DNA from: Fragilaria crotonensis
Lineage: Eukaryota > Bacillariophyta > Fragilariophyceae > Fragilariales > Fragilariaceae
Length of the DNA: 64,000 nucleotides
Direction of reading: 5' to 3'
Assembly: GCA_022925895.1 (NCBI GenBank)
Contig: JAKSYS010000013.1
Coordinates: forward strand, 62,001 to 126,000
Position 1 is the stretch's first letter; each line of letters begins with the position of its first letter. This document shows positions 1,021 through 62,292 of the stretch, one piece after another. Both the position numbers and the translations under genes were made by a program. Below the pieces are notes generated by a model. It saw nothing but the letters and a program-made list of their open reading frames with translations, did not search any database and was not told the DNA's origin.

Positions 1021-2044
1021 ATGACAAGAATCATAACTCCGATTGCCCTCCTGTTGTGTCTTCCTTCAAAAATTCAGCCTGTAGATACGGATCTAAACTG
1101 TACACTCTGTTCTGATGGTAAGTCTAGACACACAATAAGCGGGGCTCTTTATATTTAACAATACTCGAGTAATTCCAAACTACCAACTACCGGTAGTACA
1201 GGTAGGTCCAACGACCCTTCATGTGATGAAGTGCTGACTTTGTTCTTAAAGACCAAGTGCTGCGACCGGTTGCGACTTGGTCTCTGGACTGTCCATTGAG
1301 TTTTGATTGAGTCATGCTCGCTCGGACAAGTAGATTCACATGTGATACGTGGGTTGACAAACTCCAGTGCGAAATCAATCTTGCCCTGCACCTCATGCCT
1401 AACGCTATTCCACTTCCCACACCAGGATCAATCCCTAACAATCCTAATGGTAGAAGTAGATTTGGTGATGAAACGATTACTTGTCAAGAGGCCTATGACT
1501 TGGGGCCTATCTTGCTACCGGAGGACAATTGTACGTTCTTCCAAGACATTGGCACCAAGATTTGTTACTGTGGTGTAGAACTCCCGACCAATAATTATTC
1601 GTGTCCTCTCTGCGAAGATGGTACTGCACTACCAGATGGTCTGTTGGAGGCATTTCCCGGTGAAACATGTGCCGAGATGCAAGTGGATGCCAAGCGCGAC
1701 AGTGCAATTACGAATTCCTCCTCCACGAATCAATCCAGGTGCGTGTATTACCAAGGTGTGGTGGGCACTACTGTGGTTGCAACAATCCAATGTCCTCCGC
1801 GGATGTCTGTCGCATTTGTGGTGATGGCGTGGATCTGCCAAACCCTCAACAAGAAATACCAGAAGCGACATCTTCGTCGTCATTGTCGTCGTGCATAGAA
1901 TTTGAGTTTAACGCTTCGGTCAGTGGTACATGCAGTGCTGCTCGTGATTCATACCAAAAGGAGTGTTGTTCGAATACGCCCAGTCCGACACCAACCAGCA
2001 GCGCGATTGGAATGGGACTTTGGTCCCTGGTCGGACAGGCGTGA
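1021..2044 (+). CDS. Secreted Cys-rich repeat protein (two exons, one frame break)
   Basis: Exon 1 is 1021–1117, opening with a signal-peptide-like stretch (MTRIITPIALLLCLP) and ending at CTLCSDG. A GTAAGT donor at 1118 and a CCAG acceptor at 1424–1425 remove a 308-bp intron and restore the phase, giving CSDG followed by SIPNNPNG. The mature part repeats a module of paired CxLCxDG motifs, a TC(Q/A)E turn and a CYCG or YCGCNNP turn. I associate this pattern with diatom secreted proteins of unknown function. The frame changes by one base near 1765–1772, between YYQGVVG and HYCGCNNP; the Cys pattern continues perfectly in the new frame, so this is a base error or a recent lesion. The end of the protein is Ser/Thr/Pro-rich. 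Role unknown; probably cell surface or wall. Confidence 0.7.
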
Positions 2045-2313
2045 TAGTGACTGGATTGTGGGCAATTTCAGCAGTTTTATAGTAATCTTCATCGAGAGGT
2101 GCACGTTGTAGTACCTGGGCGTTAACGAACACACTGGTACCAGCCGATCTACTGGTAGTAGAGGTTGTTAGAGAGAACTTGTAGAGTGAACGTCGTCTAT
2201 AGTGATGATTCTGTTTGCAATTGATATTCGGGACAGAGAAAAGTGACATTTATCAAGAGGGTTTCGTTTGCACCTTAGTGTGTTTGCACTCGTATTTTCA
2301 GTGGCGATCACGA

Positions 2314-2898
2314 TCAACGAGCACCACTTTGCCCTTTGAAGGACATGACCTGCATGGATGATGAATAGCAGGGACATGAGCAATTTGAAAAAAGCAAGCC
2401 CGTAAATGGCAGCAAATGTAATATGCAATGCGTCATAAGGTTGTTGTAACGTACCCAATACAAGAATACCATGACAACCACAACAAAGGCAACTAGGTAG
2501 CACATATGCTTGGCCCCGCCACTCTCCAGCATAGTTCCGATTCTCTTGAGAGATGATCCAAGCAAATTGGAAACACCTGCGAAGCCATCACCCATGTCAT
2601 CCAAGAGCGAGTTCTGTTCTCTAACTTCATTCCCAATATCAATCGTCAATCCCTTCAAACGAGCCACCTGATCACTAAGTTCCGATATGCGATCGTTGTT
2701 CTGCTGTTCCAAAATGTTGGCGTTGGTATCTCTTCCAGCTTCAAGGGATGACGGATTGTAGCCGCTTCGATACATGTTTCCACCCGATGTGTTCTTGTTA
2801 TTGTACTTGTTGTTGTTACCGCTGCTGCTGTTGCTGTTGACGCTATGACTGCTAGAATTAATGTTATTGTTGTTTCGATGGCGCATTGGCGTAGTCAT
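2314..2898 (-). CDS. Bet1-type Qc-SNARE
   Basis: Bet1 SNAREs act in ER-to-Golgi vesicle fusion. The protein has an Asn/Ser-rich N-terminus (about residues 8–45), one SNARE helix with the family core IDIGNEVREQN followed by LLDDM, and a C-terminal membrane anchor (CYLVAFVVVVMVFLYW). The gene has exons 2898–2455 and 2349–2314. The intron between them is 105 bp, starts GTACGT, ends GCAG, is a multiple of three and has no in-frame stop. Spliced, the protein is about 159 residues and ends a few residues after the anchor, as Bet1 normally does. Unspliced, it would gain 35 residues in the lumen. Assignment is strong from the SNARE core and anchor. Confidence 0.85.
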   Translation of the reverse strand: MTTPMRHRNNNNINSSSHSVNSNSSSGNNNKYNNKNTSGGNMYRSGYNPSSLEAGRDTNANILEQQNNDRISELSDQVARLKGLTIDIGNEVREQNSLLDDMGDGFAGVSNLLGSSLKRIGTMLESGGAKHMCYLVAFVVVVMVFLYWVRYNNLMTHCILHLLPFTGLLFSNCSCPCYSSSMQVMSFKGQSGAR

Positions 2899-10660: not shown

Positions 10661-11046
10661 CGTCGTAGCACTCGAATAAACTATGCTTGTCTAACATGGC
10701 GTACGCTATCGCATTGCCCGCAACGGAGAGAGTCATAGTGTTAAAAGGATTTTCGATAAGAATGGATCAGGTGCAGCTCCATACTCCATTACTACTCAGG
10801 GTACTTTGCATGGCTATGGCTGCAATGGCGTACACCGTGGCATGGCATGCAGTGTAGAGAAACCTAAGTGTATTCTAAGCACGTACGAAAGTGGTTCTGG
10901 GATTAGCCTATATAAATTAAGAGCTATATTGCGAGCAACTCCGCTCCCAAGTCAGCAACATTTTGGGTTCTCATCAGTATGGCTCAACAAAAAAAAGACC
11001 AGTAGCGCTGCGCACGCTAAGCCACGCTGCGACTCCATTCTCGTGA
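10661..11046. other. Intergenic, no feature recognised
   Basis: This spacer separates the convergent CXXC-PHD gene (+) and the Lys-rich gene (-). I see no coding pattern and no clear repeat in it. Confidence 0.4.
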
Positions 11047-11759
11047 TTATCGGTAGTCCGCCTCTTTTGAAAGCTTCTTTGTCTCCTTGTCAGCCTCCTC
11101 TTCGTCCTTCTCGTGAACCTTCTTTTCCTTTTTCTTGGCGCCCTTGGGCTCCTTGGTTTCACCGTCTTCCTTCTTTTCGCCCTTCTTTCCCTTGTCTTCC
11201 TTCTTTTCGCCCTTCTCTCCCTTCTTTCCCTTGTCATCCTTCTCTTCGCCCTTCTCACCCTTCTTTCCCTTGTCATCCTTCTCGTCGCCCTTCTCACCCT
11301 TCTTGTCATCCTTCTCTTCTCCCTTCTCTCCCTTGTCGTCCTTCTTTCCCTTTTCATCCTTCTCTTCGCCCTTCGCACCCTTCTTGTCATCCTTCTTTTC
11401 TTCCTTGTCGTCCTTCTTTCCCTTGTCATCCTTCTTTCCGCCCTTCTTTCCCTTATCATCCTTCTTCTCGTCCTTCTTTCCCTTGTCATCCTTCTTCTCG
11501 TCCTTCTTTCCGCCCTTCTTTCCTTGTCATCCTTCTTTTCGTCCTTCTTTTCGCCTTCTTTCCCTTGTCATCCTTCTTTTCGTCCTTCTTTCGCCCTTCT
11601 TTCCTTGTCATCCTTCTTTTCGTCCTTCGTTTCGCCCTTCTTTCCCTTGTCCTCCTTTTCTGTGTCCTTCTCCTCTTTCACTTCCTTTTCATCCTTCTCT
11701 CGCCCTTCTTTCCCTTCCATCGACGATTTCGTAGCTTTCAAGTACTCTTGGAAAAGCAT
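11047..11759 (-). CDS. Lys/Glu/Asp-rich tandem-repeat protein (frame broken in the repeats)
   Basis: The minus strand starts [13 protein letters not shown] and runs into charged repeats of the type [14 protein letters not shown], built on a CCTTCTTTCCCTTGTCATCC-like DNA unit. The last block contains [15 protein letters not shown] and ends with [10 protein letters not shown] at a TAA (11049–11047). The first and last blocks lie in different frames, so at least one single-base length change sits in the repeat tract; several units differ by one C or T. All other frames over this tract give absurd Leu/Ser/Phe- or Arg-rich peptides and are shadows. The protein would be highly charged and probably disordered. 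No known domain. Function unknown. Confidence 0.5.
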
Positions 11760-12992
11760 TAAAGGCAGTCAGAGCACCGCGGTTGTCAGCATTGCCAGCC
11801 GCAGGTCTCATTTAAATTCGTTGGTTTCGTGAGCTGCTATATGCCTCCGACGAAGACGTAGCATTGTGTACTGTTTGTACAGTTCAGTATAGCAGTAGTG
11901 CAGTACCAGGTGGTGTAACAGACGCACGCACTGAAACTAGTCATCGCTTACGGAATGCAGTATGACATATATTAGGTATGAGACAGTATTCATTTGATCA
12001 ACCCGAGTGGTTTCGTGACGCTGTTTATTATATATATATATGTTGTTCGTTCGGTGGAACGTTCTTTTATGTTTGTTCAGAAATGGTTTGACATCCCACA
12101 TGGAATTAAGCGAAGCATTCGTATTTGTAACGCATACTCAATTTGTTTTATTTATCGTGAATGAATGTATCATAAGGCTGTCACGCCCGTTGTATAAGGA
12201 AACGCATGAACGTCTTAACGTTTTTACATAACATGCAATGGCCATGTTCATGTTTATCACTTTTTTACAATCGGTGGCCGTTTCGTAAGTACCGTAATCT
12301 AGAGTTTACCTACTGTGCTGAACGTTCACAGGCGCGCCGAGTGTCTTGGATGCGTCGTACGCGTTTTCGCCAAATTTGATTGAAACACTATAGAATTAAA
12401 GAAGTCCGAGTATGTCCGCATTCTCTTTCGTGTGTATCACACGAGCCCAAAACGAATCTATGTGTACTTAATTACCAGTTGCTACAGTATGCTAACCTAC
12501 GTAATGTACAAGTATCATACGAAGTACAGTCGGTAAACGCAATGCATGGCGTATTGCCACGTGGTAGTTTTTGTGTTCGTGTCTTCGTTGCTCTGAGTGT
12601 ACTGTACTGGAGTACTCGGACTTGAAGTACTGAATAGTATTGACAATTAAAATACCGCGATTCGCCTTGCTTCCATCCTTCCATCGAAATCGAATCACAC
12701 CTTTGGCTCCAGAAGTCGTAGTCATCACATGAAGAATCTTTCCGATGTGAGGCCATAACACAGCAATCAGCAAGAAAGACATCCGAAATCGGCAAGTCAG
12801 TCGTATACGTACAACATCTTGTGTTGTTCTGGCTTTGACTGTTGCTTAGGCTATTGTGTTCGATAAAGTGCTGCTTCGCCTGAGTTGAGCAATCACCTAT
12901 CACCTATCAGCAATCAATACAGTCATCGGAAGACAGGACGACTGGAAGCCTGAAAGAATTCTAAAACAACAAAACAATCAACAATACAGGAC
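11760..12992. other. Intergenic with an old copy of the 690-bp repeat family
   Basis: About 11865–12012 is a diverged copy of the repeat seen at 19054–19393 and 61950–62292; shared words include GTGTACTGTTTGTACAGTTC and GAGACAGTATTCATTTGATC. A short (TA)n run lies near 12030. The remainder shows no gene. The last few hundred bases should contain the promoter of the ERO1 fusion gene, but no motif stands out. Confidence 0.5.
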
Positions 12993-13685
12993 ATGTGGTC
13001 ATCTACGCGAAACATGAGAAACCGAAAAGAGTCACGAGGAAACATCCTCTTGCTTATCCTGAGTACAGCCCTGCTTGCGACACAGATCCTCCCGATCCAC
13101 GCAATTCCAATTGGCGCTGACATTGCACCATACAATCTTGAAGTTGCATTCCGTCCTAATGGACGAATTCCCGAATCACATTGCAACGTGGAAGACTTGG
13201 AGATCGCCAACGATTCGCAATTGTACTCTATTTTACAAGAATTGAAAAAGACAAACTTTTTCCGAAATTTTGTTGTTGATCTTGATCAAAAGTGTCCCCT
13301 TTCGAATAACTTTGGGACTGCAGCTGCAGCTGCACATGCGACTCATTCAAAGACACCAGATGACTCTGGAATACAACATACATCTCACGAGCAGCAACTG
13401 CAACCACATGAAGACGTAGAACAAGATGGGGACACAACTTGTGCGTCAGCAGGCATTCCCGATCTCGATCCAGACGCTGAACCCGCTTGTCATGTCCAGA
13501 CAGATGATCCATTTGGTCAAGCCGCCTTTGCCGGTGTTCCAAATCAGTTGTCTTCCACAGCCAATTCGGTTTCTACGACGACTGCTTCAACTAGTGCTAG
13601 TACGTCGTCGTCGTCGTCGTCGTCGTCAGGAACGACGAGCGGAGCGCAGCTGGAAGAACCTGCCACGTCGGACCCGATAGGATCA

Positions 13686-13745
<60 letters not shown>

Positions 13746-16735
13746 GATTCGGACGAAGCATTTGAATGCACAGGCGGGGAAGGACTTGACATGGATGACG
13801 ACGATGAACCCCTCTGTGAATTGAATCGCAGTGATTACACCCAACCCATTCGTTCCTTCCTAGCCATGGCGCTGGCATCAATTCGTTCATTGGGATGGGA
13901 GTCAGAATCGCAACGCGAGACATACCAATGGACCAAAGAAACGAATCCAGTTGTCACCGACTATGAATGCGATGAAAACGGGCAATTACCAGATGCCTTT
14001 TGGCATGATATGTGTGCCTCAATTTCTCACGGCGACTCGTCAAAGGCTGTTAATCTGATGCTCAATCCAGAGCGCAACACTGGGTACAACGGAACCCACA
14101 TCTGGAATGCCATTTATCAGGAAAACTGTTTGGCGAATGGCGATGCTTGCTACGAGGAACGCGTATTGTATCGTCTTCTCAGCGGACTCCACACCTCCAC
14201 CACCCTTGGCATTGTCAAAAACTACTATCCACCGTCAAAGCGAAAGAATCGCACGAATTGGGAACCAAACCCTGAGCTCTTTATGGAAAAGTTTCAAAGA
14301 CATGAAGATCATTTGCGCAATTTGCACTTCTCGTACGTGGTGCTGTTACGCGCCTTGAAGAAGGCTTCCGGTTTTCTGAGTCATTACGAAATCAAAAGCG
14401 GCAACATTGTGGACGATGAACTGACCTCCCGACTGTTGAAGAGGCTGTTGGATTCAGATATTCTCGAGTCGTGTCAACCCGTCTTTTCAGCGTTTGATGA
14501 AAGGCTCATGTTCGCCGGGTCCGAGTCGCTGGCGTTGCAGCAGAACTTCAAAGGGGTCTTTCACAACATTTCAAGCATCTTCGATTGCGTGCAGTGCCAA
14601 CAGTGCAAGTTGCACGGTAAAATGTCCATGCTGGGATACGGTGCGGCTCTGAAAATTCTATTCATGAAGAATAGCGAAACCTACCCATTGACTCGAAACG
14701 AAGTCGTTGCCTTTATCAATACAGTGGCAAAGTTTTCGGAGGCGCTCCGGGACGTTCGCGAGTTGACTACTCTTTACTGGCAAAAGACCGCCATCCAAGT
14801 CCCCCCAATCATTGATAGTAAGCCTGTGCTGATTGATGCTGCCGTTGGTTTGATTGCCAGTCTGGCCCGACAAGGAAAGATTGATGAAGATCGGGAAGCT
14901 CGACTCGTCGCTCTTGCCTTTCAAGGAGACGAAAACATTTTACTCTTGTTCAAACACTACGGAACCAATGTTGACAAGTTCTTGAGCCTCTCGGCGTCCC
15001 TGGTCGAAAAGCCAGTCGACGACACTCCTGATGCGATCATCGTTGGGTCTGGATTGGCTGGCTTAGCTGCGGCCCTGAATCTTCTGGATAGGGGAGGTAC
15101 CGTGACCATTGTGGAAAAAGAGCACCTGCTGGGCGGCAATTCCAACAAAGCTTCCTCGGGTATCAACGCTTGTTGTCCCAATGACAATGAATATGGTGAT
15201 TTTCTGGAAGCCTTCCGCAACGATACCATTCGTTCCGCTGGATCCGCCGTTCGTCCCGAGTTAGTTGACGTCTTGGTGAAGAACTCGGGCTCTGCCGTCA
15301 CTTGGTTGAAGGAGCGAGCTGGTGTTGACCTGTCGTTACTTGCCCAACTAGGAGGGCACTCGTACAAGCGCACTCATCGACCGTCGAATGGAATGGCTGG
15401 TGCCGAAATCATTTATGGAGTTCAGAAGGCTGTGAAAAGCGTATGAAAAAATTGGCAAAGCCAACATTATAGTCGACACTCAAGTCACGTCGCTCATAAC
15501 TGATGCTGACACAGGTCGTGTCACGGGCATCAATGCCATGGGCAAGAATGGGAATGTCGTGCAGTTGCATGCCACCAATGTGGTCTTGGCCACAGGTGGT
15601 TTCGCAGCGGACCGTAGTTCCGGATCTTACCTTGAAAAGTATCGCCCTGAGCTATTGGACATGCCAACTACCGCAGGAGCCTTTTCGACAGGCGATGGTA
15701 TCTCACTGGCGACAACATTGGGTGCTGGTATTGTTGACATGGAAAAGGTACAGATCCATCCCACGGGATGGGTTGATCCTAAAGATCCTGACAACAAGAG
15801 CAAGGTCTTGGCAGCTGAATTAATGCGGGGTGTGGGTGGTGTCCTGATAAACTCACAAGGCAAACGATTCTGCAACGAATTGGGCACTCGCGCTTACGTC
15901 ACAGACAAGATGCTGTCGCATGACGCCCACTATGCGGCAACGAAGGAATGGGACAAGGCTGCGCCAATCCCGACATTTTCTCTTGTACTGGCGTCCTCAG
16001 CCGCCGAAGACGGCAATAAGCATGTCGATCACTATGCGCACAAGGGACTTCTCCAGAGACTAGAGGGCATACAGGCGTTAGCAGATTGGGATGGGGTGCG
16101 ATAGTGAGGTCCTTCGAGAGACGTATGCATCGTACGCCCAAAGTGCTGCGGTTGGGAGAGACGAATTCGGAAAGGCTTCATTCCGCGGTCTTCCGAGCAG
16201 CGATGTGGACAACGAAGTGTTCTATGCAGGCACCGTCACACCTGTTCTGCACTACTGCATGGGAGGTATTGCGATTGATACTGAAGGTAGTGTTCTTAAT
16301 GAAGACGGAATGCACATCGAAGGTCTGCATGCGGCTGGCGAAGTCACTGGAGGAGTTCATGGCAATAACCGACTCGGTGGCAACTCGTTGCTTGAGTGTA
16401 CTGTATTTGGTACAATTGTTGGGCAAAAGCTTCCCATCAAACAACGAACTGCAAACATCGTAGCGTCCAGTAATGAAGGCGTGAAACATGTCATCGAGAA
16501 GAAGGATCGGAATGTCACCATGGATGAAGTGCGGCAACACAACACTGACGACGATTGCTGGGTTGTCATTCACGGTGTCGTCTACGATTTGACTGATTTT
16601 GCGGAAGAACACCCCGGTGGAGCGGAGTCCGTCCGCGTTCTGGCCGGTCAAGACGGTACTGAGGCATTTGCGGCCATTCATAACCAGCAGATCATGGACG
16701 ATTTCCAGGATGAGAGGATCGGAGTACTGGTATAA
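12993..16735 (+). CDS. ERO1–fumarate reductase–cytochrome b5 fusion protein (two downstream frame breaks)
   Basis: A predicted signal peptide or anchor (about residues 18–37) precedes an ERO1 domain. ERO1 marks are LMLNPERNTGYNGTHIW, AIYQENC, the FAD-contacting SGLHTST, and CVQCQQC at residues 532–538, then GYGAALKILF. ERO1 oxidises protein disulfide isomerase in the ER. A helical linker (about 605–675) leads into a flavoprotein fold with GSGLAG at 685–690. Fumarate-reductase active-site motifs follow: QIHPTGW, RFCNELGTR, HYCMGG and NNRLGGNSL. The C-terminus is a cytochrome b5 domain with EEHPGG and AFAAIH as heme-ligand histidines. ERO1 and the FAD fold lie in one unbroken 817-codon frame. 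One-base shifts follow at the A4 run 15435–15438 and the G3 run 16088–16090; the paralogue at 51372 shows one base fewer at each. About 1,245 codons in all. In-frame poly-Ser and poly-Ala tracts lie inside the ERO1 part. Confidence 0.88.
13600..13742 (+). repeat. In-frame trinucleotide repeats in the ERO1 domain
   Basis: A TCG run (near 13604–13628) encodes a Ser tract, and a longer run of GCT (near 13688–13741) encodes about 18 alanines. Both keep the frame and lie in a low-complexity insertion between the N-terminal ERO1 segment and its conserved core. They are likely length-variable and disordered. Confidence 0.85.
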
Positions 16736-50748: not shown

Positions 50749-51371
50749 TGTGCTACTCGGAGTAGTACTAGCAGTACAAGTACAAAAGATCAGGATGATG
50801 ACAATTCAAATAGTTGACGTTTTCTGTTATGATAGATAGATCACGTCGACATTATCAGATGCTAGGAGTGACTGCTGATGTTTGGCTTCGCATTGGACCA
50901 GAAGATGAAGATCACAAATGAATTTCTCGGCGTGTTGCATATTGATTACTTTCCCCATGGTCCATGACGAGCAGATCCAAGCTTTATCGTTCTGGCTTAT
51001 GCGTTGCTCTTTTTCTCTTTTGCTTTTCATTCTATAAGGTAAGATTGAGTCACATTGTAATTACATCGTGAAGACCGGAAACCAAGAGTCAGTAAGAAAC
51101 GAGTGGCACTTATTTGGAACCATGGTTCAGAATTCTGACCCGATTCAAAACGTACAAATTTGATTCATGATTTGATCGTCGTCGGCCACCGAACCCTACA
51201 TCGAGAAGCCCGTCAATGCATTGATCCACCAGAGCGACATTATTCAGGTAAAAACTCTGAGTTTTCTTGTGACATTGTTGTGATTCACAAAGCACATCTC
51301 ACATGCTAGGGCCAAACTGACTGACCTTCGCATTTTCCCTTTAGTTTCACAAGGAACTGTACAACATTGAG
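50749..51371. other. Upstream region of the reductase paralogue, possible 5' exon
   Basis: At 51177–51248 an open stretch ends in ATTATTCAG before GTAAAA. A CCCTTTAG acceptor near 51344 would join it in frame to FHKELYNIE and the next gene's Met. The stretch has no clear start codon, so a spliced 5' extension is possible but unproven. Confidence 0.35.
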
Positions 51372-53033
51372 ATGGAAGAACAAGTTGATGCTACCGTTGA
51401 TTGGATTTCCTCTCTTGTCCGCCAAGGAAAGATTGACGAGACGCTGGAAACAAAACTCGTAGCGCTCGCGATGCAACGCGACGAAAACCTCATGCTGTTA
51501 GTAGCGCAGCATGCAACAAATGTGGATCAGTTTGTGGCCCTCTCGGCGTCTCTGGCGGACAAACCAGTCAATGACATTCCTGACGCGATTATTGTTGGGT
51601 CAGGATTAGCAGGTTTGGCTGCAGCTCTGAATCTTCTAGATAGGGGAGGCGTTGTCACGATTGTCGAAAAGGAACACACCTTGGGCGGCAATTCCAACAA
51701 AGCTTCCTCAGGTATCAATGCATGCTGTCCCAATAGCAATAAAAACGGTGATTTTCTGCAAGCCTTCCGCGACGACACAATTCGATCCGCTGGAACCGCC
51801 GCTCGCCCAGAGTTTGTTGACATTTTGGTGAACAACTCGGGTGATGCCGTCACTTGGTTGAAAGAACGTGCTGGTGTTGATTTGTCCTTGCTTGCTCAAC
51901 TGGGCGGTCATTCCTACAAGCGCACCCACCGACCCTCCAATGGAGCAGTTGGCGCCGAAATCATGCGTGGAGTTCAAAATGCTGTCAGGGCGTATGAAAA
52001 AGTTGGTACACTCAAGATTTTAGTCGACACCAAAGTGACGACAGTCATTGCTGATGCTGACACAGGTCGTGTCATTGGCATCAACACCTCGGACAAGAAT
52101 GGGCAGATATTGAAGTTGCATGCCGCTAATGTGGTCTTGGCCACGGGAGGTTTTGCAGCGGACCGTAGTTCCGGATCTTATCTGGAAAGATATCGCCCAG
52201 AACTATTGGACATGGCGACGACCGCAGGCGCCTTTTCGACAGGAGATGGTATCGCGCTGGCTACAACATTGGGCGCAGGAGTTGTTGACATGGAAAAGGT
52301 GCAGATCCATCCAACGGGATGGGTGGATCCCAAAGATCCTGACAACAAGAGCAAGATCTTGGCTGCTGAATTAATGCGTGGTGTGGGTGGTGTCCTGATC
52401 AACTCACATGGCAGACGATTCTGCAATGAATTGGGCACTCGATCTTACGTCACCGACAAGATGTTGTCGTACAACAAGCATTATGCTACGACAAAGGAAT
52501 GGGACAAAAGCGCGCCAATCCCAACGTTTTCTCTTGTATTGGCGTCTTCTGCCGCAAAGGATGGCAATAAACATGTTGAGTTCTATTCGTACAAGGGACT
52601 TGTTCAAAAATTGGAAGGTATTCAGGCTTTAGCAGATTGGATGGGATGCGATAGTAAGGTTCTCCGGGAGACGTTTGTATCTTACGCCAAAAGCGCTGCT
52701 GTTGGAAAAGATGAATTCGGAAAGGTTTCGTTCCGCGGTCTTCCGAGCAGCGATTTGGACAACGAAGTCTTCTACGCCGGCACCGTTACACCTGTTCTGC
52801 ACTATTGCATGGGAGGTATTGCTATTGATACTGAAGGTAGTGTTCTAAATGAAGATGGAACGCGGATCGAAGGTCTGCATGCGGTTGGCGAAGTTACTGG
52901 TGGAGTTCACGGCGATAACAGGCTTGGAGGAAACTCGCTGCTTGAGTGTACCGTATTTGGTACTATTGTTGGGCAGAAGCTTCCCATCAAGCAACGGCTC
53001 ACCAACATTGCAAAGAAAGCCCTTGAAGAGTGA
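51372..53033 (+). CDS. Soluble fumarate reductase flavoprotein, stand-alone paralogue
   Basis: One clean frame of 553 residues is very similar to the reductase part of the fusion gene at 12993. It begins with the same helical leader (VDWISSLVRQGKID against VGLIASLARQGKID), then IIVGSGLAGLAAALN for FAD, QIHPTGW, RFCNELGTR, HYCMGG and DNRLGGNSL. All active-site motifs are present. It has neither an ERO1 domain nor a cytochrome b5 domain, and no signal peptide is visible from this Met; an upstream exon could supply one. Expected activity is FAD-dependent reduction of fumarate or a related enoate. Lack of any break makes it a reference for the frame changes in the fusion gene. Confidence 0.88.
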   Translation: MEEQVDATVDWISSLVRQGKIDETLETKLVALAMQRDENLMLLVAQHATNVDQFVALSASLADKPVNDIPDAIIVGSGLAGLAAALNLLDRGGVVTIVEKEHTLGGNSNKASSGINACCPNSNKNGDFLQAFRDDTIRSAGTAARPEFVDILVNNSGDAVTWLKERAGVDLSLLAQLGGHSYKRTHRPSNGAVGAEIMRGVQNAVRAYEKVGTLKILVDTKVTTVIADADTGRVIGINTSDKNGQILKLHAANVVLATGGFAADRSSGSYLERYRPELLDMATTAGAFSTGDGIALATTLGAGVVDMEKVQIHPTGWVDPKDPDNKSKILAAELMRGVGGVLINSHGRRFCNELGTRSYVTDKMLSYNKHYATTKEWDKSAPIPTFSLVLASSAAKDGNKHVEFYSYKGLVQKLEGIQALADWMGCDSKVLRETFVSYAKSAAVGKDEFGKVSFRGLPSSDLDNEVFYAGTVTPVLHYCMGGIAIDTEGSVLNEDGTRIEGLHAVGEVTGGVHGDNRLGGNSLLECTVFGTIVGQKLPIKQRLTNIAKKALEE

Positions 53034-61949: not shown

Positions 61950-62292
61950 TAGTGGGTAGTACCTCCCAATTGGTCGGACTTTTGGAATACGTGTACGGTA
62001 TGGGTTGTGCACGGTTGTGTGTACTGTTTGTACAGTTCAGTACTATACGCAAGTAGTGCAGTACCCCAGAGTGGTCATACTCCGTAACAGACGCACGCAC
62101 TGACGCAACTACGTATATGCAAATCTTACCGACATCGCTTACGGAGTACTCCAGTATGCATGTATGACATATATCATACTCCGAGTATGAGACAGTATTC
62201 ATTTGATCCAGTACCCCAGAGTGGTCATACTCCGTAACAGACGGACGCACGCACGCACACACGCACACAATTAATTTATAATATAGTAGGAT
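61950..62292. repeat. Second copy of the 340-bp repeat from 19054–19393
   Basis: The same order of blocks is present: TACCTCCCAATTGGTCGG, GGTTGTGTGTACTGTTTG, two CCCCAGAGTGGTCATACTCC blocks, and the ending TTTATAATATAGTAGGAT. Differences from the first copy are scattered small changes. The GT-rich left arm seen at 18701 is absent here, so this is a truncated or differently bounded copy. Confidence 0.85.

Follow-up and report, generated by a model that had tools for sequence, protein, structure and literature searches.

We found that a gene of the diatom Fragilaria crotonensis joins four parts in one chain, in the order ERO1 domain, helical linker, Osm1/Fcc3-type fumarate reductase (FRD) dependent on flavin adenine dinucleotide (FAD), and cytochrome b5 domain. 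The gene lies in the window analysed here, a stretch of 64,000 nucleotides of contig JAKSYS010000013.1 (assembly GCA_022925895.1, forward strand, positions 62,001 to 126,000). We think it reasonably probable that its product is a thiol:fumarate oxidoreductase of the endoplasmic reticulum (ER) lumen, as predicted from its domains and conserved residues. Pfam recognised ERO1 (PF04137; 2.3e-80, 270.8 bits against a gathering score of 27), FAD_binding_2 in three successive pieces (PF00890; 1e-21, 3.9e-28 and 3.5e-20) and Cyt-b5 (PF00173; 5.7e-24, 84.4 bits against a cut-off of 23.7). A single stop-free frame (12954-15446) spans ERO1, the linker and roughly the initial third of the FRD, and an earlier note on this DNA, made from the letters alone, had correctly placed the motifs CVQCQQC, SGLHTST (residues 397-403) and GSGLAG (residues 685-690) within it. 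Between residue 558, in ERO1, and residue 760, inside the FRD, this frame contains no Met codon and so offers the FRD no separate start. When residues 320-1246 served as query (E <= 1e-10), 517 proteins were returned, and ERO1, FAD_binding_2 and Cyt-b5 occur together in all of the best 120 of these, at 60-92% identity; ranking and a length limit favour full-length fusions, so that the figure does not tell how frequent fusions are among ERO1 proteins in general. The Pfam matches and these homologs together support the one-chain architecture that the note had proposed.

The ERO1 part retains its inner active site CxxCxxC (Cys532, Cys535 and Cys538) in 121 of 121 fusions. At the positions of what we take to be the FAD contacts of yeast Ero1 (R187, T189, W200, S228 and H231), T, W, S and H are each kept in 121 of 121 and R in 114, while the position of yeast R260, where the alignment register is unsure, holds Lys in 110 fusions, Gln in 8 and Arg in 3. 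Ahead of the core stands a cysteine pair of the form CX13-28C in 120 of 121 fusions (any CX4C occurs there in just one), with a loop in which acidic residues make up 43% on average; alignment of a second loop was possible in 71 of 121. By position, we tentatively equate this pair with the outer (shuttle) pair of ERO1, for which Cys259 and Cys275 are the likely residues in Fragilaria.

The flavin domain resembles yeast Osm1 most closely, as the earlier note had suspected. With a paralog from the same window as query, Osm1 was the best listed PDB match (5glg, 5.6e-79), and Shewanella flavocytochrome c (1.9e-59) and urocanate reductase (1.6e-53) matched more weakly. The catalytic six of Osm1 (H281, E301, R304, R326, H435 and R477) are identical in all 121 fusions, and each of eleven Osm1 FAD contacts tested is likewise present throughout, except V194 (119 of 121); the catalytic, contact and pocket residue lists were taken from PMC6242907.

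The proposed enzyme would work in three steps. First, thiols of the PDI type would be oxidised by the ERO1 domain via the Cys259/Cys275 shuttle, the inner pair Cys535/Cys538 and then the ERO1 FAD. Second, the electrons would pass to the FAD of the FRD, either within the chain or within an oligomer. Third, this flavin would reduce fumarate, the presumed acceptor in vivo, to succinate. The b5 haem would most likely relay or hold single electrons on their way from one flavin to the other, and ERO1, N-terminal to the FRD, sits where bacterial Fcc3 has its haem domain.

It is also conceivable, if unlikely, that the fusion just co-locates its two enzymes, in which case ERO1 would use O2 or reduce free flavin and the FRD would re-oxidise free luminal flavins. 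This would agree with yeast, where Osm1 oxidises reduced FAD, flavin mononucleotide and riboflavin, and where an Osm1 chimera no longer binding Ero1 still supported thiol oxidation (PMC6242907), and with the long low-confidence stretches in the AlphaFold model. It is harder to reconcile with the altered free-flavin pocket: while the catalytic residues are kept, Osm1 W295 is replaced by S, T, G, N or Q and F297 by I, V, T or M; F362 has become Leu (69 fusions), His (50) or Met (1) and is still Phe in one; and P162 falls in a gap in the Fragilaria fusion and the paralog. N359 is His in 121 of 121, and K76 (120 of 121), S78, L298 and Y363 are retained. Judged from the aligned residues, and by comparison with Osm1 rather than with its other relatives, the aromatic pocket is lost in the fusions.

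The structured and conserved linker also argues against mere co-location. Its roughly 60 residues form a four-helix unit in AlphaFold (Fragilaria sequence as sole input; mean pLDDT, the predicted local confidence, 86.5) and have no Pfam match above cut-off. The linker profile is present in 120 of 120 fusions, from which it was built, and in none of 120 stand-alone ERO1s. The best fold match is the VEL polymerising domain and is too weak to build on; if it were true, the fusion might assemble and thereby place the flavins of adjacent chains close together.

A further alternative, which we regard as distinctly unlikely, makes b5 the main electron port: the FRD would exchange electrons with an outside b5 partner, and ERO1 would be linked for regulation or as a second donor. 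The presence of b5 in every one of the best 120 homologs, the two haem ligands kept in the Fragilaria fusion and in all four distant fusions that reach that far, and the supply of Fcc3 enzymes through haems are in line with this, as is the metagenome protein P0319, which has ERO1 and b5 and no detected FRD. Against it, a luminal fusion would require a luminal b5 reductase, for which we have no evidence (no search aimed at it was made), and the paralog keeps all six catalytic residues without any b5. In P0319 a linker-like stretch is visible by eye, and the protein is either a real variant or a case of a missed exon. The fusion of Asterionellopsis glacialis (P0018) ends, again read by eye, in two tandem b5 domains.

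It is very unlikely that, in place of fumarate, the flavin domain acts on a different enoate, be it urocanate-like, acrylate-like or a secondary metabolite. Seven fumarate contacts (S78, S79, H281, R326, H435, R477 and G480) are kept in 121 of 121 fusions; Osm1 outscores urocanate reductase by 269.4 to 185.4 bits with the paralog as query; and the cut-off of the curated model TIGR01813 (285.45) is passed by P0001 (359), P0108 (365.2), P0302 (292.5) and the paralog (359.2). On the Fragilaria fusion gene this model matches in pieces owing to two shifts of frame (103, 127.4 and 112.1 bits, each below the cut-off).

These two one-base shifts, behind which the earlier note had rightly seen FRD motifs and a b5 domain, each consist of one extra base in a homopolymer. 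Dropping one base per shift gives 1246 residues, and the listed homologs align over 97-100% of residues 320-1246. An intron at either place is ruled out, since the single-base excess falls inside conserved sequence. Assembly error is probably the cause of both and is preferred over decay of the gene, because the paralog is one open frame through both places and because the two FRD copies, over 542 codons, differ by 0.107 nonsynonymous (dN) and 0.674 synonymous (dS) changes per site (ratio 0.16). Apart from the locus itself, a search of the assembly returned the paralog alone, hence no second copy of the fusion locus that could prove such an error. The shifts could also be taken to mean that adjacent genes were joined in assembly or that the gene is a decaying pseudogene, a hardly credible view given the missing Met for a separate FRD, the dN/dS ratio and the same fusion in all of the best 120 homologs from several sources, ten of them transcriptome-named, which refutes it for the family.

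These ten rows (P0018, P0021, P0029, P0031, P0039, P0052, P0055, P0070, P0087 and P0110; four labelled type:complete) span all three domains. At the family level they speak against transcripts that break between the ERO1 and FAD domains, which the earlier note had named as the finding that would count against a fusion; one ERO1-truncated transcript model, P0330, exists beside them. Its name (34339) is adjacent to that of the full fusion P0039 (34338), and it is possibly an intron-retention form.

The note's picture of a feature of this one alga proved too narrow. As the named source species show, the fusion occurs in both centric and pennate diatoms: Thalassiosira profunda, Mediolabrus comicus, Skeletonema, Stephanodiscus triporus, Cylindrotheca closterium and Nitzschia and, assigned by taxid, Asterionellopsis glacialis, Stephanopyxis turris and Leptocylindrus danicus. 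Database names already in use for these homologs include flavocytochrome c and fumarate reductase (NADH). Outside diatoms, ERO1-linker-FRD chains were found in Triparma retinervis (P0282, Bolidophyceae), Emiliania huxleyi (P0290, a haptophyte) and Hanusia phi (P0299, Cryptophyceae); all three match Pfam ERO1, FAD_binding_2 and the linker profile, and no model reaches b5, that of E. huxleyi ending 80 residues past the start of the flavin fold. The distant proteins P0286, P0302, P0350 and P0351 carry all three Pfam domains. A quick ERO1 tree with several long branches has fused rows on both sides of its main split, and the fusion is thus either old or has been passed between lineages.

An ERO1-core search limited to shorter proteins gave 145 matches; among the 120 listed, P0109 was already known and 119 were new. 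With our own profiles, 68 of these 119 showed the linker, 57 the FRD start, 11 b5 and 50 neither linker nor FRD, an absence that is weak evidence because most full fusions are excluded by the length limit and many rows resemble cut metagenome predictions. Many metagenome gene models (P0242-P0266 and others) stop at the sequence ELMRGVGGILINxxGxR or shortly past it, a hint of an intron site shared by these relatives and missing from the Fragilaria fusion gene.

From N-terminal heuristics we predict that the fusion serves as the ER enzyme of this cell, because plastid-type presequences are few among fusions and present in most stand-alone ERO1s. A hydrophobic N-terminal stretch was seen in 84 of 107 fusions with a Met start under a loose hydropathy rule and in 51 of 108 under a stricter 19-residue rule. 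Internal stretches above the same hydropathy limit, present in 47 of 121 fusions, were not accepted as membrane spans, as they coincide mostly with the first flavin-fold strand, in some with a linker helix and in the Fragilaria fusion with a poly-Ala run. Besides the fusion, the genome has one further ERO1 match, a stand-alone gene that lies on a different contig. This gene and many of its homologs (best 120 of 398 examined) begin with what looks like a signal peptide; AF or GF comes next, and then a region rich in Ser, Thr and Arg and poor in acidic residues. Such N-termini resemble diatom plastid presequences, in which F stands at +1 after the signal. Our own strict rule for such presequences was passed by 75 of 112 stand-alone ERO1s with a Met start versus 8 of 107 such fusions, and a looser rule by 82 versus 22. 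These presequences suggest that the stand-alone diatom ERO1 resides within the plastid or in its surroundings. CX4C is kept in 116 of the 120 listed stand-alone ERO1s; the remaining four have a short N-terminus.

The paralog, about 35 kb downstream of the fusion gene, shares 82% DNA identity with it over 1614 bases and shows no visible signal peptide at its Met start. Most likely it arose by partial duplication of the fusion gene, because it lies within the fusion clade, beside the Fragilaria fusion, P0001 and P0002. It is possibly a cytosolic enzyme comparable to Frd1. The predicted ER fusion and its signal-less paralog recall the yeast pair of Osm1 (ER and mitochondria) and Frd1 (cytosol; PMC6242907).

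Several observations weigh against the reading of the fusion as an ER-luminal thiol:fumarate oxidoreductase. No hydrophobic N-terminal stretch appears, even under the loose rule, in 23 of 107 Met-start fusions, perhaps because of wrong start models, and none of 121 fusions has a KDEL-like C-terminus. Typical b5 potentials lie near 0 mV, which is not ideal for supplying the FRD flavin. The ERO1 domain may still use oxygen, and since the genome also holds five Erv/ALR and two VKOR matches, the fusion need not be the sole disulfide source. Some of the 50 relatives lacking linker and FRD may be truly unfused, for example 13 rows (P0335-P0337, P0339-P0347 and P0349) that stop just after ERO1. The AlphaFold model of the fusion has a predicted template modelling score of 0.55 and therefore does not fix the distance between the flavins, and in yeast the docked flavins lie >20 A apart (Kim et al., PMC6242907).

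Features of the fusion gene and related genes (window positions, except for the stand-alone ERO1; residue numbers after both shifts are read through)
Feature	Position	Strand	Remarks
Whole fusion gene, ERO1-linker-FRD-b5	12993..16735	+	1246 aa once both one-base shifts are read through
Probable secretory signal peptide	13014..13103	+	Second Met to Ala37; hydropathy heuristics; P0001, the closest homolog, begins in this region too
N-terminal ERO1 part	13170..13307	+	Cys64, Cys101; yeast Ero1 match here not significant by itself
Low-complexity ERO1 insert	13308..13952	+	Poly-Ser and poly-Ala; acidic loops Cys150-x15-Cys166, Cys259-x15-Cys275
ERO1 catalytic core	14001..14792	+	CVQCQQC 14586-14606; FAD contacts R361, T363, W371, S397, H400
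Linker, four-helix mini-domain without annotation	14826..15008	+	Conserved in fusions
Osm1/Fcc3-type soluble FRD domain	15018..16444	+	Pfam, TIGR01813 pieces, residue alignment
FRD catalytic residues	H922 (15757), E942 (15817), R945 (15826), R966 (15889), H1086 (16250), R1126 (16370)	+
First one-base shift	15435-15438	+	AAAA run, one extra base; probable assembly error
Second one-base shift	16088-16090	+	GGG run, one extra base; probable assembly error
Cytochrome b5 domain	16517..16729	+	Axial His at 16610-16612 (H1206) and 16679-16681 (H1229)
Stand-alone paralog, linker and FRD without ERO1 or b5	51345..53033	+	First Met 51372
Stand-alone ERO1	G000:C350:100054-104019, open reading frame 1261..2490		Bipartite plastid-type presequence, signal and AFVVAP

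Upstream of the fusion gene, a pyrimidine-rich low-complexity tract (10974-11832) carries long, probably spurious frames on both strands.

One predicted secretory-pathway chain in diatoms and some other algae suggests a folding of secreted proteins that does not use oxygen. More tentatively, and with considerable doubt, the default ER disulfide enzyme of diatoms, haptophytes and cryptophytes might be an O2-independent, three-centre thiol:fumarate oxidoreductase with an acidic long-loop shuttle, the conventional ERO1 of diatoms having moved to the plastid. If this were true, a large share of oceanic phytoplankton would couple oxidative folding to fumarate and succinate, not to O2 and H2O2. According to the plant study PMC9516139, folding driven by ERO strictly requires O2 as its final acceptor; the study cites the Osm1 route of yeast and states that in Arabidopsis no alternative of this kind has been identified. 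Diatoms, in turn, inhabit oxygen-free sediments, where they respire nitrate in the dark (PMC3660698). The proposed enzyme, if real, would bear on how they keep secreting proteins there, and on how they limit H2O2 in the ER. The conserved ERO1-FRD gene fusion is also independent natural evidence that the Ero1-Osm1 link, which in yeast rests on a weak interaction, is used, and it offers a single polypeptide for the direct testing of thiol-to-fumarate transfer.

Both activities and their cooperation are already known from yeast, where electrons from thiols reach fumarate by way of two separate proteins, Ero1 and Osm1, as reconstituted with purified proteins (Kim et al. 2018, PMC6242907). Among the open-licence PMC titles and abstract starts listed in our searches, we found no description of the four-part single chain, of its spread from diatoms to haptophytes and cryptophytes, of the changed shuttle pair or of a second ERO1 of plastid type. 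The yeast pair belongs to the same two enzyme families and has the same catalytic residues as the fusion, but consists of two weakly interacting proteins instead of one chain; moreover, Osm1 has an aromatic free-flavin pocket and no haem domain, whereas the fusion has lost this pocket and contains an additional linker and b5. Shewanella Fcc3 shares the FRD fold, the catalytic residues and an electron-supplying domain N-terminal to the flavin domain, but is bacterial, uses a multihaem cytochrome c as donor instead of ERO1 and has no b5. In the NADH-dependent fumarate reductase of kinetoplastids, a soluble FRD likewise lies centrally in a multidomain chain, together with an ApbE domain and a b5-reductase-like domain and without ERO1. 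Canonical ERO1 proteins (yeast Ero1p, human ERO1-alpha and the stand-alone diatom ERO1), finally, share the core fold, CxxCxxC and the FAD contacts with the fusions, but the stand-alone diatom ERO1 has CX4C where the fusions carry an acidic-loop CX13-28C, with FRD and b5 attached.
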